This document shows positions 16,582 to 36,081 of a stretch of DNA of 63,560 bases, piece by piece. How positions within the stretch are numbered: the stretch's first letter is position 1; every line of letters begins with the position of its first letter. The stretch is from a virus, in IMG/VR virus record IMGVR_UViG_3300030382_003361, positions 1-63,560 of that record; one strand, written 5' to 3'. The notes beneath the pieces were generated by a model, which made no database searches, had not been told where the DNA came from, and worked only from the letters and a program-made list of their open reading frames with translations. A program made the translations under genes and the position numbers.

Positions 16582-18249
16582 ATGAGCACACAGGGATACA
16601 TTCCAAAAGACCTTGCGTTTGATAATGAAGCAAGGGAAAAACTAATTAGCGGAATCGCCGCTATTTCTAAAGCCGTTAAGAGTACTCTCGGCCCTCGCGG
16701 GCAAACGGTATTGATAGAATCCGAAAACCATACGCACGGCCTAACTGTAACTAAAGACGGGGTAACCGTTGCTAAGTCTATATTTCTTTCTGACCCTATA
16801 GAGAATTTGGCGGTTAGTATGATGAAGCAGGCGGCTGACAAAACAGCTAATGTCGCAGGAGACGGAACAACTACAGCTATTGTCCTGACAGAAGCTTTAG
16901 TGCAGGCGGGACTTAAATGGATAAAGCCAGAACACAATACCACCGAGATTATTAAGGTGATTAAAAGTGAAACAGAGAACCTTATAAAGTATTTAGATGG
17001 ATTAGCAAAAGAAGTAGATGAAGACAAATTATTACATGTAGCTACTATTTCTGCCAACAATGATAACGAGTTAGGTAAGATTATCGCTGACGCTTACAAT
17101 AAAGTAGGAAAAGACGGAGTAGTAACAGTCGAGAAATCTAAAACTGAAAAGACTTATGCGGAGGTTACTAATGGTATAAAGGTAAACCGCGGATACTCAT
17201 CTCCTTTATTTATTACTGATCAGCGAAAAGATGAATGTGTTTTAGAAGATGTAAAAATATTAGTATGCGACCAAGAGATCAATAACATTTTACAAATTGA
17301 AAAAGTGCTGAAGCCTATTATTAATGGAGGAGACAAACTCCTTATTATAGGAGAGTGTTCGGGTAATGTGATAAACACCTTAGCGGCCAATGTCATGAGA
17401 AACGGATTAAAGCTTTGTAATATCCCTGTCCCATCTTTTGGCTATCGTACCCATGAGCTCATGCAAGATATTGCTCTGGCTGTAGGTGCTAAATACTTTT
17501 CAGAAAAGACAGGCGATGACTTGTCTTTAATTACCGAAGCCGATTTAGGACATGCTAATAAAATAAGAGTAAATAAAGACTCTACCGTTATCTTAAGAGA
17601 GGAAGAAATAAGTTCTGAGATCATTAAGCGCGTAGAAGAATTAAGAGAACAACAAGATCTTTTAACTGAACCAGGGGAAAAAGAGTTTGTAAATGAAAGA
17701 ATAGCCAGTTTAGCTGGAGGAATAGGATGTATATACGTAGGAGGCAATTCTGATATTGAGCAAAAAGAAAAATTTGACCGAGTCGATGACTCGGTATGCG
17801 CTGTGCGCAGTGCCCTACAAGAGGGCATTATTCCAGGAGGAGGATTAGCTTTATATGATATAGGAAAAAAATTAACTTGTGATTGTAATGACAAGAGCAG
17901 AAAAGAAGATGGAAAACCTATAAATCTCTTTGATATAGGCAGAGAGATATTAGGAGAGGCTATTCAATCTCCCTTAAAGCAAATCCTTATTAATGCAGGA
18001 AAAGACCCGGACGAGATTATGGATGTTATCTACAAAGATTTAAAAGTAGAAGAAATGAGAGACGAGGATCAAAACACTAAAGGTTATAATGTAGTGACCG
18101 AACAATTCGGTGATATGTATGAGGCGGGAATTATTGATCCATTAAAAGTAACCAAACAAGCGTTATCCAATGCTATTAGTGTAGCTACAACCATACTCAC
18201 AACAAACGCTATAGTTACGCATGCTCGGGCAGGGACTGATGGGGAGTAA
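16582..18249 (+). CDS. groL: GroEL-type chaperonin (Cpn60)
   Basis: This full-length 555-residue GroEL has STLGPRGQTVLIE (34-46), KDGVTVAK (58-65) with an ATPase Asp, GDGTTTAIVL (93-102), VDDSVCAVRSAL near 403 and IIPGGGLAL. The nucleotide site is therefore intact. The C-terminus lacks the Gly-Gly-Met repeats of bacterial GroEL and ends in a charged segment. It would form a folding ring for capsid or other phage proteins, with the GroES encoded two genes later. It has its own promoter and the array-B operator. Phage GroEL genes are known but uncommon, and a complete GroEL-GroES set even more so. Confidence 0.96.
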   Translation: MSTQGYIPKDLAFDNEAREKLISGIAAISKAVKSTLGPRGQTVLIESENHTHGLTVTKDGVTVAKSIFLSDPIENLAVSMMKQAADKTANVAGDGTTTAIVLTEALVQAGLKWIKPEHNTTEIIKVIKSETENLIKYLDGLAKEVDEDKLLHVATISANNDNELGKIIADAYNKVGKDGVVTVEKSKTEKTYAEVTNGIKVNRGYSSPLFITDQRKDECVLEDVKILVCDQEINNILQIEKVLKPIINGGDKLLIIGECSGNVINTLAANVMRNGLKLCNIPVPSFGYRTHELMQDIALAVGAKYFSEKTGDDLSLITEADLGHANKIRVNKDSTVILREEEISSEIIKRVEELREQQDLLTEPGEKEFVNERIASLAGGIGCIYVGGNSDIEQKEKFDRVDDSVCAVRSALQEGIIPGGGLALYDIGKKLTCDCNDKSRKEDGKPINLFDIGREILGEAIQSPLKQILINAGKDPDEIMDVIYKDLKVEEMRDEDQNTKGYNVVTEQFGDMYEAGIIDPLKVTKQALSNAISVATTILTTNAIVTHARAGTDGE

Positions 18250-18538
18250 GTATTATAAAGGGGAGTGGGTAGTTAGCTATCTTAATGTGACGGAGATAAA
18301 AGGGGATTTTGATGAGTTCTCTTTACAGAACTTAATTCGTCAAGATAGAGGGTATGATTGGGCAAGACTATTGTGTGATATAGACCAAGAAGGATTAAAA
18401 GAGTTAATTGAGGTAGAAAAAAGAGGAGTAGATTATAGAGTGATACAAGGAAATCATAGATTAAAAGTATTACAATACTTATATCCGTCTAATAATATAT
18501 TAAGATTTAAATTAAAAAGATATGAAACCAATAAATAA
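18239..18538 (+). CDS. ParB/Srx-like fold protein
   Basis: I use the ATG at 18239 (99 residues, beginning MGSKYYKGEWVVSYLNVTEI). It overlaps groEL by 11 bases, against 29 for the ATG at 18221. The C-terminal part contains DYRVIQGNHRLKVLQYLYP, the G-x-HR signature of the ParB/sulfiredoxin superfamily. That group includes DNA partition proteins, nucleases and small NTPases. It lies between GroEL and GroES in one operon, with overlaps on both sides. A direct chaperonin role is not known for this fold. Confidence 0.65.
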   Translation: MGSKYYKGEWVVSYLNVTEIKGDFDEFSLQNLIRQDRGYDWARLLCDIDQEGLKELIEVEKRGVDYRVIQGNHRLKVLQYLYPSNNILRFKLKRYETNK

Positions 18539-18779
18539 ATACATTATCATTAAAATGATTGAAGAGGAATTAAAAACAGAATCAGGCTTATTACTGTCTG
18601 CTCACGATGCTTCATCGTTTCGTTATAAAAAAGGAGAGGTTATAAAAGCCGGAACACATGTAGAGGTAATAAAAGAAGGGGATATTATCTTTTATGATAA
18701 GTCTGCCGGACACAGGATGTTAATAGAAGATAATCCTTATACTATTATCTCTGAGCGAGATGTCGTTGTTGTCTTATAA
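18522..18779 (+). CDS. groS: GroES-type co-chaperonin (Cpn10)
   Basis: The 85-residue protein has the GroES plan: KPINKYIIIKMIEEE, a mobile-loop segment TESGLLLSAHDASSFRYKKG, the GEVIKAG turn, IKEGDIIFYDK and a final ERDVVVVL strand. It is about ten residues shorter than bacterial GroES because the roof loop is short, as in phage co-chaperonins. The mobile loop keeps the hydrophobic LLL that docks on GroEL. The start overlaps the preceding gene by 17 bases. It should cap the phage GroEL, the host GroEL, or both. Confidence 0.92.
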   Translation: MKPINKYIIIKMIEEELKTESGLLLSAHDASSFRYKKGEVIKAGTHVEVIKEGDIIFYDKSAGHRMLIEDNPYTIISERDVVVVL

Positions 18780-22766: not shown

Positions 22767-23960
22767 ATGCCTACAGGAATTGGAATCGGAATAGGAGGAG
22801 ATGTATTTAACACATTCCCAGGTGGTGGTGGTGGTGTTTCCGGTAGTCTGTACTCTGTTCGATTCGATGGCGGGACTCAAGAATTAAATTATACCGGAGG
22901 GATTCCTGTAATGGGAACATCGGGCACTGGAGATTGGACTGTCTCCTTTTGGTTTAAAGCGGTGCAAATAGCAACCGGTACTAATCAGCGAATTTTGTTT
23001 TTTCAAGGAACAGGGATGAATATCACCTGGTATCTCACCTCGACAGGACTTTTACAAGCAGGAGGGGCGTGGAACGATAGTTCTGTCTATTCTTTTTCAG
23101 ACGGCACCTGGTATAACGTTACCTATGTGGCAGACCGAAGTAATTCCTTGGGAGCCCCTACCGCTCGCGGATACTATTGGGTTGATGGGGTAATGACTGA
23201 CTACAAAGATATATCAGCTTCTACCGGAGCATTTCCTACTACCGGTAGTCAAACTATTATAGGAAATAATCCGAGCGGAATACAAGCTTTTGATGGGTGG
23301 GTAGATGAAGTGTCTATCTGGAATGGAACTCTCAGTGACGCGCGGGTAATAGATATTTATAATGGAGGCTCTCCAGTTGACCTTTATGGGCAGTCTGGAT
23401 TGAATCATTATTGGAGAATGGGTGATCCTAATGGCCCGGCTTCTTACCCCACAATTGTAGATGCGGCTTATCCGGCCTTAGGTTCTGAGCTTCTCTTAAA
23501 TACAGATTTTAGTGCGGGCGCTACTTATTGGTCAGGCAATCCCGCGCTGCCCTCCAGTTGGACTATTACAACTCAAGCAAATTATGATGGAGTAACAGGC
23601 GGACAGGAATTAATACAGAGGTTCTCAGACCAGATACCGGCAGGAACACCTCTTACAGCAGGTACAACAGTAAAGGTTGAATTTGATATATCAGATGTTG
23701 AACCAGCTAAAACTGCTTATTTTAGATTAGATTACAATGGTACTCCAGACCAAATATTTGGATATACAAACTTTTCTGCAGGCAAATATACTTATTACCA
23801 TACACTAACAGCTACACTTGACAGATTATCTTTTGCTGCTATAATTACAGGTACAGGAGGTTATTTTTCAATAAACAATGTATCACTTAAAGAAGTATAC
23901 GGATTACCGTTAACGATGGTTAATCAATCAAGCGCTAACATAACCACTGATGTACCATGA
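22767..23960 (+). CDS. LamG/ConA-like lectin domain virion protein
   Basis: This 397-residue protein has a Gly-rich N-terminus and a concanavalin-A/LamG-like domain at about 25-215. In it WTVSFWFKAV, ILFFQGTGMNITWYL and FDGWVDEVSIWNGTLSDARV match the laminin-G-3 plan. A second, carbohydrate-binding-like beta domain follows from about 240. It probably binds host surface glycans. It precedes the lysis genes and ends with an ATGA overlap to the next ORF. Confidence 0.78.
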   Translation: MPTGIGIGIGGDVFNTFPGGGGGVSGSLYSVRFDGGTQELNYTGGIPVMGTSGTGDWTVSFWFKAVQIATGTNQRILFFQGTGMNITWYLTSTGLLQAGGAWNDSSVYSFSDGTWYNVTYVADRSNSLGAPTARGYYWVDGVMTDYKDISASTGAFPTTGSQTIIGNNPSGIQAFDGWVDEVSIWNGTLSDARVIDIYNGGSPVDLYGQSGLNHYWRMGDPNGPASYPTIVDAAYPALGSELLLNTDFSAGATYWSGNPALPSSWTITTQANYDGVTGGQELIQRFSDQIPAGTPLTAGTTVKVEFDISDVEPAKTAYFRLDYNGTPDQIFGYTNFSAGKYTYYHTLTATLDRLSFAAIITGTGGYFSINNVSLKEVYGLPLTMVNQSSANITTDVP

Positions 23961-26221: not shown

Positions 26222-28504
26222 ATGGCAAAAATTGAAAATACCACCGTCTATCCTACCGTCTTACCCACGGCTGACGATTTACTGATAGCCACTGATACAA
26301 GTGATGATAATAAGACGGTTACATTTTTAGTTAGTAGTCTTATCGCTCCTTCATCTACACTGCAAGGACTGCAATCTGTTTTAGATACTGGAAATATTGC
26401 TACTCAAACTATGGATTTGACTGGGGATATTAATTTATTAGGAGGTCCAGGTGTTGGATTCCTTGAAACTTGTCAAATTAAATTAGGAGGTAGTTATGGA
26501 GCGGCTGGACAGGTAGTAACTTCACAAGGAGCAGGTTCTTGTGCAATATGGTCTACCCCATCAGCAACATCATGTTGTAGTTTAGATGCCACATTAACAG
26601 TAGGGAATACTTCTTCCCAAGATATTGTACTCGTTAGTAGTCAATTCCAGACAGGAGGAGCGGGAGGAGGTGTGCAGATTACTGGGCCAGCCAGTCTGGT
26701 AAATACAGGGATAAGCATATTTAGCAATACAGTTAGCTTGGTAGGAACAGCTTTAAATTTTGATGCTACTGCGCAAATTAATGATGGTGCGGGTTCAACT
26801 GGTGGAATAGGAGATATCCTAACTGCTACCGCTACAGGAGTTGAGTGGTCAAGCACAATTCCATCGTCATTATGTTGTAATTTACAAGACACTTTAACTT
26901 CAGGTAATACAGCGACAGGGATTGGTATATCAATGACCGCCACATCCCCATTAACATTGGATGCTACGTCAAATATTACCTCATCAGGAACAAACACATG
27001 GAACGGAACAAATACATTTACTGCAGACATTGAAGTAGACGGCACTCTTGAAGACGGCTTAGGGTCGGCTGGCGTTGCGGGTATGGTACTTAGTTCTACA
27101 GGAACTGCAGTAGAGTGGGTTTCAGTAGCGTCTTTAGCGTGCTGTGATTTAGAAGATACTTTAACTGCAGGAAATACAGCAGTTAACAATATGGGATTAA
27201 CAGGAACTCTTACGGTAACCGGTTCGGTTGTGTTAGGATCATCTACTTTAAGCGCTTCAGGTTCAGTAGGAGCGGCGGGGCAAATACTATCTTCTACAGG
27301 TACGGCTACCCAATGGATAAATGCTTCTGCTTTATGCTGTAACTTACAAGACACTTTAGATGTTGGAAATAGCGCCAACCAAAATATAACTCTAACTACT
27401 GCTGGTAACACGATTACCGCACCGTTAGTTGATCCCGACCAAATTGTAGATACTGCAGGAGGAACAGGATTAGCGGGAGAGATTTTAAGCTCTACCGGAG
27501 CAGGTTTAGCATGGATTTCCAGTAGCGCTGCATATAACTGGACGGTAAAAGACGACGCCTCTTTATTAGACGTGGTAAATAGCGGAGATACTTTACTCAT
27601 ATCCGGAGGGACAGGTTTAACATCTGCTTTAACAAACGGAGGAACAAATGTTCCAAGGATGACATTAGATTTAGATGATACAGCGGTAACACCAGGATCT
27701 TATACTAATACTGATCTCACCGTAGACGCTCAAGGAAGAATTACAGCGGCAGCCAATGGAACAGGAGGAGGAGCTGTCACATCGGTGTCGGCTGGAGCTC
27801 CTGGAACAAGTACAGGAACGCCTTTAACTATCACTCCTACCACCGGGGTTGTAGTGGCTACATCCAATGCTTATGCAGGAACAACTAACGTAGGACATGT
27901 ACCACCAGGCGGAACAGCAGCAACATTTTTAAGAGGAGACGCGACATGGCAGTTGCCTCCCGCCGCCCCGAGTATTCTTAATGTAGAAAAACAATTCTAT
28001 TGTGCAGAATCTACAGATTTTAGCACCAGTGTTCACTGGACATGGCATGACCAAATAAATATCGACGCTCCCTCTACCAAAGTAGACCAGCCAGTTCCAG
28101 ATATAGCGTCTATATCAGCAAGAAATGCCTCTTTTGGAGCGGTATATATTAATCCTGATACCGCGGATTGTGAAGCAGCGAGTTGTGCGAAAGTTTTATG
28201 TTCTGTTAAATATGTACTCTCTACTACCGAGGCCGTTACAATAAATCTATACAAGATAGATTTTTGTCCAGGAGGCGTAGAACCTTGGCCTTATACAGCA
28301 GCTGTACTTGCAAACTCATGTAATTTTGCTGCAGGAGTCGACCACGAATTAGTATGTTGTAATGGAGTAAATTTTAATACACCGTCTGCTCAACTACTAA
28401 ATCCAGGAGAGGGGTATATCATGACTATGAGTGCTTTTGGAGCAGCCTCAACCATAGTGCATGGAAACTTCAGCCTCCAAATGATTACTCAAGATTGCAC
28501 TTAG
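26222..28504 (+). CDS. Tail fibre with tandem di-cysteine repeats
   Basis: This 760-residue protein has the same N-terminal anchor as its neighbour. At least four repeats follow, each opening with CC and a form of DTLTxGNT (CCSLDATLTVGNT, CCNLQDTLTSGNT, CCDLEDTLTAGNT, CCNLQDTLDVGNS) and ending near GQILSSTGTATQW. A cysteine-free first copy lies near residue 47. A Gly/Thr-rich fibre segment with TFLRGDATWQLP and a Cys-rich C-terminal head follow. It is likely a trimeric receptor-binding fibre. The paired cysteines are unusual and may bind metal or form disulfides. Confidence 0.75.
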   Translation: MAKIENTTVYPTVLPTADDLLIATDTSDDNKTVTFLVSSLIAPSSTLQGLQSVLDTGNIATQTMDLTGDINLLGGPGVGFLETCQIKLGGSYGAAGQVVTSQGAGSCAIWSTPSATSCCSLDATLTVGNTSSQDIVLVSSQFQTGGAGGGVQITGPASLVNTGISIFSNTVSLVGTALNFDATAQINDGAGSTGGIGDILTATATGVEWSSTIPSSLCCNLQDTLTSGNTATGIGISMTATSPLTLDATSNITSSGTNTWNGTNTFTADIEVDGTLEDGLGSAGVAGMVLSSTGTAVEWVSVASLACCDLEDTLTAGNTAVNNMGLTGTLTVTGSVVLGSSTLSASGSVGAAGQILSSTGTATQWINASALCCNLQDTLDVGNSANQNITLTTAGNTITAPLVDPDQIVDTAGGTGLAGEILSSTGAGLAWISSSAAYNWTVKDDASLLDVVNSGDTLLISGGTGLTSALTNGGTNVPRMTLDLDDTAVTPGSYTNTDLTVDAQGRITAAANGTGGGAVTSVSAGAPGTSTGTPLTITPTTGVVVATSNAYAGTTNVGHVPPGGTAATFLRGDATWQLPPAAPSILNVEKQFYCAESTDFSTSVHWTWHDQINIDAPSTKVDQPVPDIASISARNASFGAVYINPDTADCEAASCAKVLCSVKYVLSTTEAVTINLYKIDFCPGGVEPWPYTAAVLANSCNFAAGVDHELVCCNGVNFNTPSAQLLNPGEGYIMTMSAFGAASTIVHGNFSLQMITQDCT

Positions 28505-28528: not shown

Positions 28529-28747
28529 ATGGACATTAGAAAAATATCAATTGGAGCAGATTATAAATCTGGAGCTATGCACTACATTGTAGGGCAAGAT
28601 GTTTTAGGAGGCGCATACCAAATTCATCTAATTCAAGCTCAAGATAATTCCTATAAAATTTGGGTAGAAAAAAATAAAGAAGTCTTTGTATGGAAAGAGT
28701 TCTTATGTACACTTCCTATCTCTGTAGAGTATAATATAAATTTTTAG
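28529..28747 (+). CDS. Conserved marine-phage protein (DIRKISIGADYK type)
   Basis: The 72-residue beta-rich protein begins MDIRKISIGADYKSGAMHYI and ends VEYNINF. I recognise this pattern from T4-like cyanophages, where it is annotated hypothetical. The stop overlaps the GTG start of the next gene by one base, so it belongs to the GroES-like/oxygenase/halogenase cassette. The function is unknown. Confidence 0.68.
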   Translation: MDIRKISIGADYKSGAMHYIVGQDVLGGAYQIHLIQAQDNSYKIWVEKNKEVFVWKEFLCTLPISVEYNINF

Positions 28748-29310
28748 TGAGGTCTCCTTTTAATTTTATCGTCACCCCGGTTAACGAGCGTAGATATGAT
28801 AATATAAAAAAAATTGAAGGAGTAGATTTTATTACCAGTGTTTCTGAAGAAGACCATACCGCTTCAAATAGATTCGCGCAGGTAAAAGAACTCCCTATTA
28901 ATTATACCGGTCCTATACAAAAAGGAGATATTTTAGTGGTACATCATAATGTATTTAAGTTTTACAATGACATGCAGGGGAGACAACAAAGTGGCAGAAG
29001 TTTCTTTAAAGATGATTTGTTTTTGGTAGACGAACATCAGTTTTTTCTGTACAAAAATCAAGACGCATGGAAGGCTCACGGCAAATATTGTTTTATTATC
29101 CCGGGAGACATTAAAGAATCTTATCTTAGCAAGCCAGGAACAGAAGAGCCGTTATTTGGGACAATTAAATATATTAACCAAGAATTAATAGACTTAGGAT
29201 TAAAAGAAGGAGATGAAGTCTCTTATCAGCCCGATAGTGAATATCCTTTTGTGATAGACGAAGAAAAGCTTTATCGCATGTATACAGATAATATAACTTT
29301 TCTCGTATGA
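28747..29310 (+). CDS. GroES-fold-like conserved phage protein
   Basis: This 187-residue protein has a GTG start. Its pattern (SPFNFIVTPVNERRYDN, GDILVVHHNVFKFYNDM, FFKDDLFLVDEHQFFLYK) is known from cyanophages. The C-terminal LKEGDEVSYQPDSEYPFVID followed by EEKLYRMYTDNITFLV resembles the final half of GroES. The early GDILVVHH resembles the GD-V strand. I therefore suspect one or two Cpn10-like folds, without certainty. It overlaps the oxygenase gene by four bases. Confidence 0.55.
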   Translation: MRSPFNFIVTPVNERRYDNIKKIEGVDFITSVSEEDHTASNRFAQVKELPINYTGPIQKGDILVVHHNVFKFYNDMQGRQQSGRSFFKDDLFLVDEHQFFLYKNQDAWKAHGKYCFIIPGDIKESYLSKPGTEEPLFGTIKYINQELIDLGLKEGDEVSYQPDSEYPFVIDEEKLYRMYTDNITFLV

Positions 29311-29888
29311 TATATATAATAGACAATTTTATAGATACAGAACTCTTTGGAATTGCAAAACAATATTTAGATAAAGGGAAATTTGTAAAACATACATCAG
29401 GAGGAAAAAATTTTTATATTCAAGAGTCTCCCGCGACTTTTAACAGTTATGTTTTAAGAAAATTAGAAGCTATAGAAGGGTCAGAGGTAGAAAATATACT
29501 AAGTTTCTTTCGGGTATCTACTGACCAATTAGATACCAGTTGGAGAATACATTCCGATCTAAACATAAAAGGAGATCGTCCGGACAGAGCAATTGTCCTA
29601 TATATGTCTCCCCGGGAGAAAGAAGAATTGCACGGAACAGCTTTATGGGAGCATCAGATATACGGGAGAGAACTTCCTCCCGCTATTACGGACGAGGATT
29701 ATGATAGTATGATAAAAATAGATGCGGAAAATATAGATATGTGGAGATTAAGTACGGTTATAGGATATCACCAAAATAGAGTAGTTTCTTACCCCGCCTC
29801 TTACTTTCATAGTAAATATCCTAATAAATCATGGGCCGGAGGAAGAGAAGTTTTTGTAATGTTTTATAAATATAAAAAAACTAAATGA
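29307..29888 (+). CDS. 2-oxoglutarate/Fe(II)-dependent oxygenase
   Basis: This 193-residue protein contains WRIHSDLNIKG with the His82-x-Asp84 pair, a second histidine in YFHSKYPNKSW (His168) and Arg180 in GGREVFVMFY. This is the HxD...H facial triad plus the 2-oxoglutarate arginine. It should hydroxylate or otherwise oxidise a substrate that cannot be read from the sequence. It overlaps both the GroES-like gene (4 bases) and the halogenase gene (4 bases). Related oxygenases of the DUF6445 type often sit beside tryptophan halogenases, which supports a joint reaction. Confidence 0.82.
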   Translation: MIYIIDNFIDTELFGIAKQYLDKGKFVKHTSGGKNFYIQESPATFNSYVLRKLEAIEGSEVENILSFFRVSTDQLDTSWRIHSDLNIKGDRPDRAIVLYMSPREKEELHGTALWEHQIYGRELPPAITDEDYDSMIKIDAENIDMWRLSTVIGYHQNRVVSYPASYFHSKYPNKSWAGGREVFVMFYKYKKTK

Positions 29889-30940
29889 AAAGAATTGCAA
29901 TAGTGGGAGCTGGTAATGCTGGGTGTATAACCGCATTAGAATTATTAAATAATCCTGAGTTGCATGAAATTACTATATATCATAGCCCCGAAGAACATCC
30001 AATAGAAAAAGTGGGGCAAGGAACTCTCCCTGGTTTTACACGTATGTTATACAATAAACTGGGTGTCGACTGGTATAATAATCTAATTGATGCCACGGTT
30101 AAGACAGGTATATTATATGAAGGATGGGGTAAAAAACAAGATAAAATATTTCACCAGTTTTGCTCTAACAGTTGTACAGCGTCCCATTTTGTTCCTCAGA
30201 AATTATCCAACTTAGTATTAAAATCTGGCTTATTTAACATTGAAGAAAAGATTATAGATAATCCTGAGCAAGAGATAGATTGTGATATAATATTTGATTG
30301 TAGGGGTAGGCATAACAGAGATAAAAATAATTACGATACATTGATTAGTCCTATTAACTGTGTTCTTCTTGGTAAAAGATTAAGACTAAAATCAGATTAT
30401 GACTTAATCTACACAAGAGCCGTTGCCACACCTAATGGGTGGACCTTTATTATACCTAATAAGGATACGATATCGTACGGTTATTTACATAATAATAAGG
30501 TGACATCTAAACCTGAGGCTTCTCAAGACTTTATAGAAAGATTTAATATAACTTGTATTGATGATTATATAACGTTTGATAATTATGCGGCGAAAAATAT
30601 GTTTGTAGGCGATAGAACTATACTACAGGGAAACGCTTATGGATTTATAGAACCATTAGAAGCAACAGCTATTAACTTTTATCATCAATTATGTGTCGAA
30701 GCTAAGAATACTATTTTCAATGGTGTCGATTCGTATGAAACTAACAATGAAGTAAAAGCAGGTATCCAAAGGGTTGAAACGTTTTTATTATGGCATTATC
30801 AATTTGGATCTAAGTATGATACTTCTTTCTGGGAGTATGCTAAAAATTTACCGTTTAATCCTAAATTTAACGCAAAAAGTCTAAACGAGGTCTGGGAAAA
30901 AACACAGAGAGGGTCACGTTATGTCGAAGAAGTAATATAA
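29885..30940 (+). CDS. Flavin-dependent halogenase (tryptophan halogenase family)
   Basis: The 351-residue protein has the FAD-binding GAGNAG (8-13). A conserved lysine lies in DATVKTGILYEGW (Lys73, in the place of the catalytic Lys79 of PrnA/RebH). GWTFIIP (185-191) stands where halogenases have WxWxIP, and GNAYGFIEPLEATAI (249-263) is a family hallmark. It is shorter than bacterial enzymes of about 530 residues. A cyanophage halogenase, VirX1, shows that viral members can be active. Changes in the WxWxIP motif mean halogenation is not certain. Its position in the virion operon suggests it modifies a phage or host protein or a small molecule. Confidence 0.82.
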   Translation: MKRIAIVGAGNAGCITALELLNNPELHEITIYHSPEEHPIEKVGQGTLPGFTRMLYNKLGVDWYNNLIDATVKTGILYEGWGKKQDKIFHQFCSNSCTASHFVPQKLSNLVLKSGLFNIEEKIIDNPEQEIDCDIIFDCRGRHNRDKNNYDTLISPINCVLLGKRLRLKSDYDLIYTRAVATPNGWTFIIPNKDTISYGYLHNNKVTSKPEASQDFIERFNITCIDDYITFDNYAAKNMFVGDRTILQGNAYGFIEPLEATAINFYHQLCVEAKNTIFNGVDSYETNNEVKAGIQRVETFLLWHYQFGSKYDTSFWEYAKNLPFNPKFNAKSLNEVWEKTQRGSRYVEEVI

Positions 30941-30965: not shown

Positions 30966-31166
30966 ATGGGGGTACAAAAAAATATTGGCAGACTAAAAGC
31001 ACAAAATCAAGTGCTTCTGGAGAATCTTAAAAAATTAATTATACAAGAAAACGACACTCGAGAATTGGCTATTGGTACATTAGAGATTTTAAAACTATTG
31101 CCAGGGTATGAAGAAGCGATTAAACAATTAAAAGAAAGAGTAAAAGATGGACATAAAGGAGATTAA
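30966..31166 (+). CDS. Small coiled-coil protein upstream of terminase
   Basis: The 66-residue, wholly helical protein reads MGVQKNIGRLKAQNQVLLEN and then LEILKLLPGYEEAIKQL. It overlaps the next ORF by 20 bases. Its position and helical composition fit an accessory packaging protein. No family is recognised. Confidence 0.6.
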   Translation: MGVQKNIGRLKAQNQVLLENLKKLIIQENDTRELAIGTLEILKLLPGYEEAIKQLKERVKDGHKGD

Positions 31167-31425
31167 ATTAAGCATTATCGAGGCGGGGGAAAAGGCCGTT
31201 AAACAATTAGTAAAGGTAGCTAAAGAAGAGATCATTAAATATGATAAAGATGATGAATTAGCGGCGGATCGGCTTAAGAATGCGGCGGCTACTAAAAAAC
31301 TCGCTATATTTGATGCGTTTGAAATTTTAAAAAGAATAGAAGAAGAGAAGGCTCTTATAGAAGGAGTCTCTTTAGAAGATACTAATAAAACCCCTAAAGG
31401 ATTTGCAGAATCAAGATCAAAATAG
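31147..31425 (+). CDS. Candidate small terminase subunit
   Basis: This 92-residue helical, charged protein contains DELAADRLKNAAATKKLAIF (36-55), and its end overlaps the large terminase by 23 bases. Small terminase subunits usually lie exactly here and are short helical DNA-binding oligomers. No helix-turn-helix signature is clear. The call is by position only. Confidence 0.45.
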   Translation: MDIKEIKLSIIEAGEKAVKQLVKVAKEEIIKYDKDDELAADRLKNAAATKKLAIFDAFEILKRIEEEKALIEGVSLEDTNKTPKGFAESRSK

Positions 31426-33649
31426 ATTACATCGCGTACTAACAGGAATAGTTCCTAAGCATGTTATTTCGAATAAAAATCGTGCTAAAAGTTGGAAAGC
31501 TGGTTATGATAGTAAATACGATATAATTATTATCTCTAAAAACGGAACATTAGGAGAAGTATATGAGATTAATGGGTTAAAAATTGGACTCCCTAAGATG
31601 CCTAAAAAAGTATCTTCTACTTCTAAAACAAAAAGTGAGCAATATTGGGAGCCTCATGTTTTACCCAAACATCTTAAACGTATACAGACTATTTTTCAAT
31701 GGCACGACACACCTGCTCCTTTTAAGTCTTTATGGATAGATTATATAGAAGAAGAGTTTGATAAACGGGAAGAAGGACATTGGTTTATGAATAATGGGGA
31801 TCCGACTTATATTACAGGAACTCATTATATGTATTTACAATGGACAAAAATTGATGTAGGAAATCCGGATTTTAGAGAAGCGAATCGAATTTTTTATCTA
31901 TTTTGGGAAGCTTGTAAGGTAGATAAAAGATGTTTTGGCATCTGTTATTTAAAAATAAGGCGTTCGGGGTTTTCGTTTATGAGTTCGTGCGAAGGAGTAA
32001 ATTGTGGTACAATTACAAAAGATGCCCGTATAGGTATTTTATCGAAAACAGGTTGGGATGCGAAAAAAATGTTTACCGATAAAGTTGTTCCTATCTCTAA
32101 CAATTATCCTTTCTTTTTTAAACCTATTCAAGATGGTATGGATAAACCAAAAACTGAATTAGCATATAGAGTGCCAGCCTCTAAGATTACTAAAAAAAAT
32201 ATGTATGAAATTGAGAGTGAGGAATTAGAAGGGTTAGATACCACTATAGATTGGAAGAACACTTCGGATAACAGTTATGATGGAGAAAAATTATATTTAT
32301 TATTACACGATGAAAGTGGTAAATGGGAAAAACCGGAAAATATTTTAAATAATTGGAGGGTTACTAAAACCTGTTTAAGATTAGGAAGTAAAGTGGTAGG
32401 GAAATGTATGATGGGATCGACGTCTAACGCTTTAGACAAAGGGGGAAGAAATTTTAAATCTTTATATGATGACTCAGACTTATCTAAGAGAAATTCTAAC
32501 GGTCAAACAAAAAGCGGGTTGTATTCTTTATTTATACCTATGGAATGGAATTTTGAAGGATACATAGATAAGTACGGGATGCCTGTATTACACAATCCTC
32601 CTGCTCCTATTATGGGGATAGATGGAGAGGAGATTACAATGGGTGCAATTAATTATTGGGAAAATGAAGTAGCTTCATTAGCTTCGGATGCAGACGCTTT
32701 AAATGAATTTTATCGTCAATTTCCTCGAAGTGAATCTCATGCTTTTCGCGACGAAAGTAAACAGTCTTTATTTAATCTCACTAAAATTTATCAGCAAATT
32801 GATTATAATGATTCTTTAATCATAGACCACCATTTAACCCGAGGTTCTTTTCACTGGAAAGATGGGGTACAGGATACTAAAGTAATCTGGTCTCCTAATA
32901 AGAGAGGGCGGTTTTTAGTAGGATGGACACCGGCGCCGCATTTACAAAATCGGGTAGATGAGTATAGAGGACAGAAAAAACCAGGGAATGAACATTTAGG
33001 ATGTTTTGGTTGTGATTCCTATGATATTTCCGGTGTGGTGGTGGGGCGTGGATCAAACGGGTCTCTACATGGGTTAACCAAATTTAGTATGGATGACGCT
33101 CCTTCTAATCAGTTTTTTTTAGAATATATAGCGCGGCCTCAAACTGCAGAGATATTCTTTGAGGAAGTTTTAATGGCTTGTATTTTTTATGGAATGCCTA
33201 TTTTATGCGAGAACAACAAACCCCGTTTACTTTATCATTTTAAGAATAGAGGGTATAGAGGGTTTTGTATGAATCGGCCTGATAAACGTTATAATAAATT
33301 ATCTAAAACAGAGAAAGAACTGGGCGGTATCCCTAACAGTTCGGAAGATGTTAAACAATCCCATGCTTCAGCGATTGAATCTTATATTGAAAAATATATT
33401 GGGTTAGATTTTGAGGGGGCTTATAGAGACCCTGACGAGATGGGGACAATGTATTTTCGGCGTACTTTAGAGGACTGGGCTAAATTTGATATTAATCATA
33501 GGACTAAATATGATGCAACTATAAGTTCAGGGTTAGCCATTATGGCTATTCAAAAACACTTATATACACCGTCTAAAGAAAAATCAAAAATAAGTGTTAA
33601 CTTTGCACGATATAATAACAAGAGTAGTATTAGTGAACTAATTAGATGA
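31403..33649 (+). CDS. terL: Terminase large subunit
   Basis: This 748-residue packaging motor has an ATPase part with a degenerate P-loop region KIRRSGFSFMSS (184-195) and Walker B LYLLLHDE (297-304). The C-terminal RNase H-like nuclease has GCDSYDISG, CENNKPRLLYHF and KYDATISSGLA, giving the Asp/Glu/Asp metal ligands. The absence of a classic GK(S/T) is also seen in terminases of crAss-like and related phages. It pumps DNA into proheads and cuts concatemers. It overlaps the portal gene by four bases. Confidence 0.9.
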   Translation: MQNQDQNRLHRVLTGIVPKHVISNKNRAKSWKAGYDSKYDIIIISKNGTLGEVYEINGLKIGLPKMPKKVSSTSKTKSEQYWEPHVLPKHLKRIQTIFQWHDTPAPFKSLWIDYIEEEFDKREEGHWFMNNGDPTYITGTHYMYLQWTKIDVGNPDFREANRIFYLFWEACKVDKRCFGICYLKIRRSGFSFMSSCEGVNCGTITKDARIGILSKTGWDAKKMFTDKVVPISNNYPFFFKPIQDGMDKPKTELAYRVPASKITKKNMYEIESEELEGLDTTIDWKNTSDNSYDGEKLYLLLHDESGKWEKPENILNNWRVTKTCLRLGSKVVGKCMMGSTSNALDKGGRNFKSLYDDSDLSKRNSNGQTKSGLYSLFIPMEWNFEGYIDKYGMPVLHNPPAPIMGIDGEEITMGAINYWENEVASLASDADALNEFYRQFPRSESHAFRDESKQSLFNLTKIYQQIDYNDSLIIDHHLTRGSFHWKDGVQDTKVIWSPNKRGRFLVGWTPAPHLQNRVDEYRGQKKPGNEHLGCFGCDSYDISGVVVGRGSNGSLHGLTKFSMDDAPSNQFFLEYIARPQTAEIFFEEVLMACIFYGMPILCENNKPRLLYHFKNRGYRGFCMNRPDKRYNKLSKTEKELGGIPNSSEDVKQSHASAIESYIEKYIGLDFEGAYRDPDEMGTMYFRRTLEDWAKFDINHRTKYDATISSGLAIMAIQKHLYTPSKEKSKISVNFARYNNKSSISELIR

Positions 33650-36081
33650 AAGCAGTTGAAATCAACATAAAGTCTGCTGCCTTTCCGGATCAATTTGTCT
33701 CCGACAAAAAGAAAGCAACAGAGGAGTTTGGACTGCAAGTAGGCCAAGCTATTCAGTACGAATGGTTTCGTAGAGATGGAATGCAATGTAGGTTCTACAA
33801 CCAATGGGCAGAATTTCATCGTTTGCGCCTGTATGCGCGTGGCGAACAATCCGTTCGTAAGTATAAAAATGAATTAGCAATAGACGGTGATTTATCTTAC
33901 CTTAATTTAGATTGGACGCCAGTTCCAATTATTCCTAAATTCGTAGATATTGTAGTTAATGGGATGTCCGATAGATTATTCCATGTGAAAGCGACGGCTG
34001 TAGACGTTATGTCTGCAGAAAAACGCAGTCAGTTTCAAGAAATGGTAGAGGTAAATGTGGTGGCGAAAGATTTATTCCTTCAAATAGAAAACGATTTCAA
34101 TATGAAGGTGGGTCAGATTAATCCTAAAGAGCTACCCGAAAGTGATGCCGAAATGGAGTTATACATGCAGCTTAACTATAAACCCGGTATTGAGATTGCT
34201 AATGAAGTGGCGATTCAAAGTATGTTAGAAGAAAATCATTACGAACAGGTTCGTAAAAGATGTGACTTAGATATTACAACCCTGGGAATTGGAATATGTA
34301 AACATACTTTTCAGAAAGGAGACGGAATACGGGTAGAGTATGTTGATCCAGCCAATGTGGTATATAGCTACACAGAAGATCCTCATTTTAAAGATACGTT
34401 TTATTGGGGAGAGATTAAAACTGTCCCGATTACGGAAGTTTTAAAAATTAATCCCGATTTAACCGAAAAAGACTTAGAGGAAATTTCCAAATATAGTCAA
34501 GCATGGTATAACTACTATAACGTAGCGGCCATGTATGAAAACAGTATGTTCGCTCGGGACACTTGCACTCTTTTATATTTTAATTACAAAACAACAAATA
34601 GCTTTGTTTATAAAAAGAAAAAAATGGCGGAAGGAACATTTAAGGTGGTAGAAAAAGATGACGAGTTTAATCCGCCGCAAGAAATGATGGATGAAGGAGA
34701 GTTTGAGAGAGTAGAAAAAAGAATAGATGTGTGGTATGAAGGAGTAATGGTGATGGGGACAAATCTCCTTATTGAATGGAAAATGATGGAAAATATGGTT
34801 CGTCCTAATTCCGCTAATCAATTTGCTATGCCTAATTACATCGCTGTTGCACCCAGAATGTATAAAGGAAGATTAGAATCTTTAGTTAGACGCATGATTC
34901 CTTTTGCCGACTTAATTCAGGTTACTCACCTGAAGTTACAACAAGTAGTTTCCAAAGTTGTTCCTGATGGAGTGTTTATTGATGCCGACGGATTAAGTGA
35001 AGTTGATTTAGGGACAGGGAATGCTTATGACCCTTCCGATGCTTTACGTTTATATTTCCAAACTGGTAGTGTAGTAGGAAGGAGTTATACCCAAGATGGA
35101 GAGTTTAATAATGCTAAAGTTCCAATTACTCAACTTACGTCAAGTAGTGGAGCACAAAAAATGCAAATGCTAATTGGTAACTATAATCATTATTTAGATA
35201 TGATAAGAACTGTAACCGGTCTTAATCAAGCCCGAGATGCTTCGACACCTGATCCAGATTCGTTAGTAGGCATTCAAAAATTAGCGGCTTTAAACTCTAA
35301 TACGGCTACGCGTCATATTTTAAAATCCAGTTTGTATTTAACTAAAACTTTAGCGGAAGCTTTATCTTTACGGACAGCCGATATTTTAGAATACTCAGAT
35401 TTTAAAGATGAGTTCGCTATGCAGATAGGGAAATATAATTTAGGAATTTTAGAAGAGATTAAAAATTTATATTTATATGATTTTGGTATTTTTATTGAAG
35501 TATCTCCCGACGAGGAAGAGAAGGCTTTATTAGAACAGAACATACAAATGGCTTTACAGAAAGGGGGAATTGATTTAGAAGACGCTATTGATATTAGAAC
35601 TCTTAATAATTTAAAAATGGCTAATCAATTATTAAAAGTTAAAAGGAAACAAAAACAACAGGAACAGCAACAGCAAAAAGCTCAAGAGATGCAAATGCAG
35701 CAACAAAACAACATGCAGTCTCAGCAAGCGGCGGCCCAAGCCTCTATGCAAAAAATGCAAGCCGAAACTCAATCTAAAATGCAAATTGCTCAGGCCGAAA
35801 TAGGTTTCCAGATTGAAAAACAAAAAAATGAAGCCGCTTTAAAACAACAATTAATGCAAGTAGAGTTTCAATTTAATATGCAATTAAAAGGAATAGAACA
35901 GTCACAAATAGATAAACGTGAAAACGAAAGAGAGAAAGGAAAGTCGGATAGAATAGCAGAAGCTAATACGCAACAATCTAAAATGATTGAACAAAGAAAA
36001 AGAAATTTACCAGCTCAGAACTTTGAGTCTAATGAAGATAGTTTAGATGGGTTTGATTTAGCAGAATTTGACCCGCGATAA
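33646..36081 (+). CDS. Portal protein
   Basis: The 811-residue protein has the portal plan of crAss-like podoviruses. PVPIIPKFVDIVVNGMSDRL opens the wing region, VYSYTEDPHFKDTFYWGE lies in the middle, and a stem region contains YLDMIRTVTGLNQARDAS. A long Gln-rich coiled coil (KRKQKQQEQQQQKAQEMQMQ and onward) follows, then an acidic tail. It forms the dodecameric DNA channel at one capsid vertex. Its place between terminase and scaffold genes supports the call. Confidence 0.88.
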   Translation: MKAVEINIKSAAFPDQFVSDKKKATEEFGLQVGQAIQYEWFRRDGMQCRFYNQWAEFHRLRLYARGEQSVRKYKNELAIDGDLSYLNLDWTPVPIIPKFVDIVVNGMSDRLFHVKATAVDVMSAEKRSQFQEMVEVNVVAKDLFLQIENDFNMKVGQINPKELPESDAEMELYMQLNYKPGIEIANEVAIQSMLEENHYEQVRKRCDLDITTLGIGICKHTFQKGDGIRVEYVDPANVVYSYTEDPHFKDTFYWGEIKTVPITEVLKINPDLTEKDLEEISKYSQAWYNYYNVAAMYENSMFARDTCTLLYFNYKTTNSFVYKKKKMAEGTFKVVEKDDEFNPPQEMMDEGEFERVEKRIDVWYEGVMVMGTNLLIEWKMMENMVRPNSANQFAMPNYIAVAPRMYKGRLESLVRRMIPFADLIQVTHLKLQQVVSKVVPDGVFIDADGLSEVDLGTGNAYDPSDALRLYFQTGSVVGRSYTQDGEFNNAKVPITQLTSSSGAQKMQMLIGNYNHYLDMIRTVTGLNQARDASTPDPDSLVGIQKLAALNSNTATRHILKSSLYLTKTLAEALSLRTADILEYSDFKDEFAMQIGKYNLGILEEIKNLYLYDFGIFIEVSPDEEEKALLEQNIQMALQKGGIDLEDAIDIRTLNNLKMANQLLKVKRKQKQQEQQQQKAQEMQMQQQNNMQSQQAAAQASMQKMQAETQSKMQIAQAEIGFQIEKQKNEAALKQQLMQVEFQFNMQLKGIEQSQIDKRENEREKGKSDRIAEANTQQSKMIEQRKRNLPAQNFESNEDSLDGFDLAEFDPR

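Follow-up and report, generated by a model that had tools for sequence, protein, structure and literature searches.

Gene content of the late region

The window, meaning the whole stretch of DNA that was analysed, is the 63,560-base IMG/VR virus record IMGVR_UViG_3300030382_003361 (labelled G000), from a marine phage. The preliminary description had placed three genes in its virion operon, encoding a likely chaperonin-fold protein, an oxygenase and a halogenase, and had described them as joined by 4-base overlaps. The open reading frames bear this out (Table 1): the sequence ATGA forms the junctions at 29307-29310 and 29885-29888, the terminase large subunit (TerL) and portal genes follow directly downstream, and virion proteins lie beyond. 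The junction at 28747 reads TAGTG, a 1-base overlap with the 72-aa ORF in front. This ORF and the 92-aa ORF preceding TerL are conserved (57-86% and 57-85% identity, respectively) in relatives both with and without the halogenase.

TerL shares 71% identity with that of the environmental podovirus MW202828 and about 46% with TerL of Flavobacterium Elemovirus phages; Cellulophaga, Tenacibaculum and Maribacter phages were matched as well. Given this relatedness, the window phage likely has a host in Flavobacteriia. The fibre-like protein upstream of the 72-aa ORF differs greatly between relatives, both in length and in sequence, and had no family match in Pfam and PHROG profile searches. Further upstream, 22767-23960 encodes a protein with a Laminin_G_3 / concanavalin A-like lectin domain (1.2e-12), possibly a receptor-binding gene.

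Table 1. Features of the late region of the window
Feature	Coordinates	Strand	Evidence or remark
760-aa fibre-like protein	26222..28504	+	four W...CC.L..TL..GN repeats
72-aa conserved ORF, core late gene	28529..28747	+	1-base overlap with next gene
GroES-like core late gene, probably tandem Cpn10 fold	28747..29310	+	phrog_13932, Foldseek
Predicted 2OG-Fe(II) oxygenase, DUF6445-like	29307..29888	+	HxD...H...R: H82, D84, H168, R180
Compact flavin-dependent halogenase, 351 aa	29885..30940	+	PF04820, phrog_2928; GxGxxG, K73, E259, GWTFIIP
66-aa variable ORF between halogenase and packaging genes	30966..31166	+	carried by only some relatives
92-aa conserved ORF preceding TerL, small-terminase position	31147..31425	+	function by position only
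Terminase large subunit (TerL)	31403..33649	+	phrog_6681 8.3e-178
Portal protein	33646..36081	+	phrog_6547 3.4e-150; P22_portal 2.8e-6

The GroES-like gene and its neighbours

The 187-aa product of the GroES-like gene matches phrog_13932, "co-chaperonin GroES" (4.9e-17), and scores below the Pfam Cpn10 cut-off (13.6 against 21.1 bits; E 0.073). Its AlphaFold model is of moderate confidence (pLDDT 72), and the best Foldseek matches of this model were chains of the Chlamydomonas ClpP complex 7ekq (E 3.4e-4), which we take to be the chloroplast co-chaperonins of that complex, and many Cpn10s. These structural matches, together with the length of the protein, point to what is probably a tandem Cpn10 fold. 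The phage additionally encodes a GroEL (16582-18249; PF00118, 3.4e-62) and an ordinary Cpn10 (18522-18779; PF00166, 1.3e-12), that is, a full chaperonin pair plus the probable tandem co-chaperonin.

The order GroES-like, oxygenase, halogenase is kept in the halogenase-bearing sisters (L003-L006, L061 and L064), as would be expected if the GroES-like protein served a three-part system by folding or presenting both enzymes or their substrate. Against such a system, MW202828 and the Elemovirus phages carry the GroES-like gene beside TerL without both enzymes, the halogenases of other phages are not next to a GroES-like gene, and the window phage encodes a GroEL and a Cpn10 of its own at other loci; we consider this arrangement highly improbable. 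Many sister contigs (L029-L046) combine the GroES-like and oxygenase genes and lack a halogenase, and in Elemovirus some 28 kb separate the oxygenase homologue, which sits in the early region beside replication-side genes, from the GroES-like gene. Because relatives have the GroES-like gene next to TerL when the enzyme genes are not beside it, it is a core late gene that merely adjoins the insertion site and stands outside the enzyme pair. The coupled three-gene cassette proposed in the preliminary description is thus contradicted by the independent occurrence of its genes in relatives. What survives of the undescribed three-part modification system is its core of oxygenase and halogenase, which are neighbours in many unrelated phages; the GroES-like member falls away.

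To follow the halogenase within the phage group, we compared the late modules of five halogenase-bearing genomes or pieces with those of five long halogenase-free records. Late gene order was the same in both sets, and, small variable ORFs apart, the halogenase was the only clear late-module gene present in all bearers and in none of the five non-bearers. In G020, G021 and G023-G025, the five long records from sisters, PF04820 had no match anywhere. The bearers are scattered on the late-protein tree, so there has been more than one gain or loss of the halogenase at this single site directly behind the oxygenase.

The predicted 2OG-Fe(II) oxygenase

The HxD...H triad was found intact (H82-x-D84 and H168), as had been noted before, and is conserved in the family, as is R180, the 2OG-binding arginine. 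The Pfam DUF6445 match of the window protein is sub-threshold (19.2 against 24 bits). Profile-profile comparison nevertheless connects its family to a group of 172-aa phage oxygenases that precede halogenases (96.8% probability, E 3e-10), and one member of this group scores above the DUF6445 cut-off. These 172-aa DUF6445-type proteins are connected in turn to the PF13640 and PF13759 types (84% and 87% probability, respectively). Direct profile-profile comparison of the window family with the latter two types yielded no link (4.5% and 0.3%), so that the connection needs the DUF6445 bridge. The assignment as a 2OG-Fe(II) oxygenase is therefore a prediction built on a chain of profile comparisons plus the intact catalytic residues.

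A compact subfamily of flavin-dependent halogenases

The halogenase matches PF04820 well above the cut-off (8.4e-36; 124.2 against 21 bits) and phrog_2928 (1.7e-63), and both profile and fold comparison matched it to PrnA, RebH, MibH and VirX1. Confidence in its structural model is moderate overall (pLDDT 64) and low near Lys73. The GxGxxG glycines (G8, G10 and G13), K73 and E259 are all present and kept across the subfamily of compact phage halogenases to which the protein belongs; K73 and E259 correspond to the catalytic residues K79 and E346 of PrnA. In the alignment of this subfamily the catalytic lysine is invariant, and the catalytic glutamate is found in every row except that of a Campylobacter phage (L058), which has glutamine. 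A decayed halogenase copy was ruled out, as the length and the catalytic residues are conserved in dozens of phages. The altered WxWxIP motif pointed out in the preliminary description was confirmed as GWTFIIP, yet it is no peculiarity of this protein: GWTF[VI]IP is the rule across the compact subfamily, with few exceptions, and the second tryptophan is replaced by phenylalanine throughout, so the window protein is treated here as a variant among the flavin-dependent halogenases (PF04820, variant A) and not as one of their standard members.

The compact proteins, mostly 345-402 aa long, are reduced in two places. The segment between the two parts of the "box" domain measures 34-37 aa, against 86-89 aa in full-length relatives, and the C-terminal part mostly 17-77 aa, against 92-97 aa; in the window protein, 26 aa remain C-terminal to position 325. 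The profile match to PrnA stops at about residue 420, and the region that holds the tryptophan amine and carboxylate in PrnA (about 435-460) has no counterpart. In PrnA, the carboxylate and amine of free tryptophan are held by Y443, Y444, E450 and F454, and the indole by H101, F103 and W455 (PMC5659210). Along with this free-tryptophan-binding segment, the compact subfamily has lost most of the "pyramid" that covers the substrate. BrvH, in which an equivalent loop is missing, leaves its site open and does not accept tryptophan, and its openness has been likened to that of the peptide halogenase MibH (PMC5945002). Taking the missing free-tryptophan-binding C terminus together with the BrvH parallel, we infer that the compact enzymes would act on a substrate bulkier than free tryptophan.

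The subfamily-wide phenylalanine and the loss of most of the substrate domain could also be read as signs of a protein that no longer halogenates and serves as a flavin monooxygenase or as a binding protein with another function. We regard this as improbable, given that Lys73, Glu259 and GxGxxG are kept in nearly all phage-type representatives and that the full-length families sharing the box domain are halogenases. A profile search of the record returned no flavin reductase of the PF01613 type, which leaves the host to supply the cofactor.

Recurrent adjacency of oxygenase and halogenase genes

Related viral loci number at least 474. Comparison of 55 halogenase clusters (90% identity) included 49 phage-type representatives, three of which come from contigs in bacterial or archaeal bins. 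A 2OG oxygenase gene was the immediate neighbour of the halogenase in 23 of the 49 and lay within two genes in 26, and the start and stop codons of the two genes often overlap. As PF13640, PF13759 and DUF6445 were each confirmed above the Pfam cut-off among the neighbours, the pairing takes in different oxygenase families. On a quick halogenase tree, the 2OG-neighbour label changes at least seven (starred branches) to nine times, a count that lumps gains with losses. Under random placement, 3.4 of 23 records would be expected to have a PF13640 gene within 1 kb of the halogenase; 11 did (p 7e-5). When similar arrangements were removed, PF13640 genes alone gave 5 of 16 records against 1.95 expected, which is marginal (p 0.03); across the tests on this reduced set p ranged from 0.03 to 0.15.

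The pair is not obligatory: roughly one compact halogenase in two stands without a 2OG neighbour, and in the family to which the window's oxygenase belongs most members, including those of many sister phages, occur without a halogenase. The same figures suit a reading in which unrelated accessory genes share an insertion hot spot by the packaging genes: the neighbourhood would be an accumulation of cargo with no joint pathway, and the enzymes would have separate targets, that of the halogenase being indole or another small molecule of the host. Close relatives that carry the oxygenase alone, the abundance of 2OG genes in marine phages in general (PMC3037559) and the modest outcome of the reduced adjacency test all fit this reading, which we hold to be possible without expecting it to prove correct. 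It accounts less well for an adjacency that recurs with different 2OG families and with overlapping start and stop codons, and the halogenase, whose substrate side is open and reduced, would suit a bulky substrate more than indole.

Halogenases occupy late settings in several phage types: the compact form next to TerL and tail sheath genes (L010), tail fibre genes (L072; S-ShM2) or the major head protein gene (Sf-CH5), and the longer one of HTVC008M next to TerS and TerL. In L008-L013 and L028 the compact halogenase begins within the end of TerL (4-base overlap), with the tail sheath gene downstream. In L019 (4780-8248), 2OG genes flank the halogenase on both sides, four in total, behind a gene for a glycine-rich possible adhesin.

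Proposed function

Taken together, the data lend moderate support to a two-part accessory module. As for its activity, we give just short of an even chance to a late module of 2OG oxygenase and compact halogenase acting on a bulky, probably protein, substrate. In this scheme the enzyme pair (29307-30940) would be co-expressed late in infection. The oxygenase would hydroxylate exposed residues of the substrate. The halogenase would draw FADH2, O2 and halide from the host, generate an electrophilic halogenating species at Lys73/Glu259 and place the halogen on an exposed aromatic residue. The two enzymes may share one joint substrate, with a virion fibre or head protein, or a host protein encountered at a late stage of infection, as candidates. 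A virion protein comes first because the pair is positioned among virion genes, and the repeat protein upstream, a candidate by position only, would be a reasonable first test. Modification of a late-made protein by the predicted enzymes is plausible. Among the shared late proteins, none of 46 conserved Trp columns tracked the presence of the halogenase; 2 of 173 Tyr columns did, which is not convincing.

Tryptophan halogenases are commonly found in natural product pathways (PMC8407142), and a small-molecule weapon had been raised in the preliminary description. We think it most unlikely that the two enzymes make such a weapon or a signal, because no biosynthetic core gene was recognised in the operon, and the setting is one of virion genes.

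A broader version of the protein-modification proposal, which we offer tentatively and judge rather unlikely, is that several marine phage families share a mobile late-gene module, a pyramid-less mini-halogenase with at least one 2OG hydroxylase, which yields an enzymatically halogenated and hydroxylated virion protein. If true, enzymatically halogenated virus particles would exist.

Relation to known systems

Viral halogenase activity, cited in the preliminary description for a cyanophage enzyme, is on record for VirX1 of cyanophage Syn10 (PDB 6qgm; PMC8407142), likewise a phage flavin halogenase, with an open, accessible active site and a sequence and fold match to the window protein. VirX1 is, however, about 180 aa longer (531 aa), whereas the window protein is without most of the pyramid and carries GWTFIIP. 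MibH (PDB 5uao), a lanthipeptide Trp 5-halogenase that also belongs to PF04820, provides a precedent for a peptide substrate; it differs in being full length and part of a natural product pathway, and no such precursor peptide was seen in the window.

The short prnA genes of cyanophages S-ShM2, S-RIM14 and Sf-CH5, among the gene sizes of 1104-1167 nt tabulated for short cyanophage prnA (PMC3037559), belong to the same compact subfamily (36-38% identity), but they sit beside transaldolase or major head protein genes and lack a 2OG gene next to them. In Pelagibacter phage HTVC008M (NC_020484), oxygenase, halogenase and TerL genes overlap and follow the same order as in the window; here the halogenase is longer (about 465 aa), the oxygenase is of the PF13759 type and the phage belongs to a different family.

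Phage 2OG oxygenases are abundant (PMC3037559; PMC12774648). Explanations put forward in the literature for phage genes of these kinds include antibiotic protection (PMC2984593), altered host metabolites (PMC10452541) and modulation of 2OG levels (PMC3037559). A literature search whose scope took in few subscription papers and preprints turned up neither the compact subfamily nor the pairing of 2OG oxygenase and halogenase, no paper that names DUF6445 along with a halogenase, and, for Pelagibacter phages with a Trp halogenase, only an unrelated metatranscriptome paper. Viral halogenases such as VirX1 and phage 2OG oxygenases are thus already known, and the search weakly suggests that the compact subfamily and the pairing are perhaps new. 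For VirX1-type viral halogenases, the compact subfamily, its late setting and the 2OG pairing make the question of the natural substrate testable, and a halogenase of minimal size whose site is open would help in labelling peptides and proteins.

A cellular counterpart of the phage pair was observed in Alteromonas sediminis (L143, 5974-10532), where a DUF6445 gene and two Trp halogenase genes likewise lie near each other; this cluster differs in its full-length halogenases, the presence of SapC and its location on a chromosomal contig.
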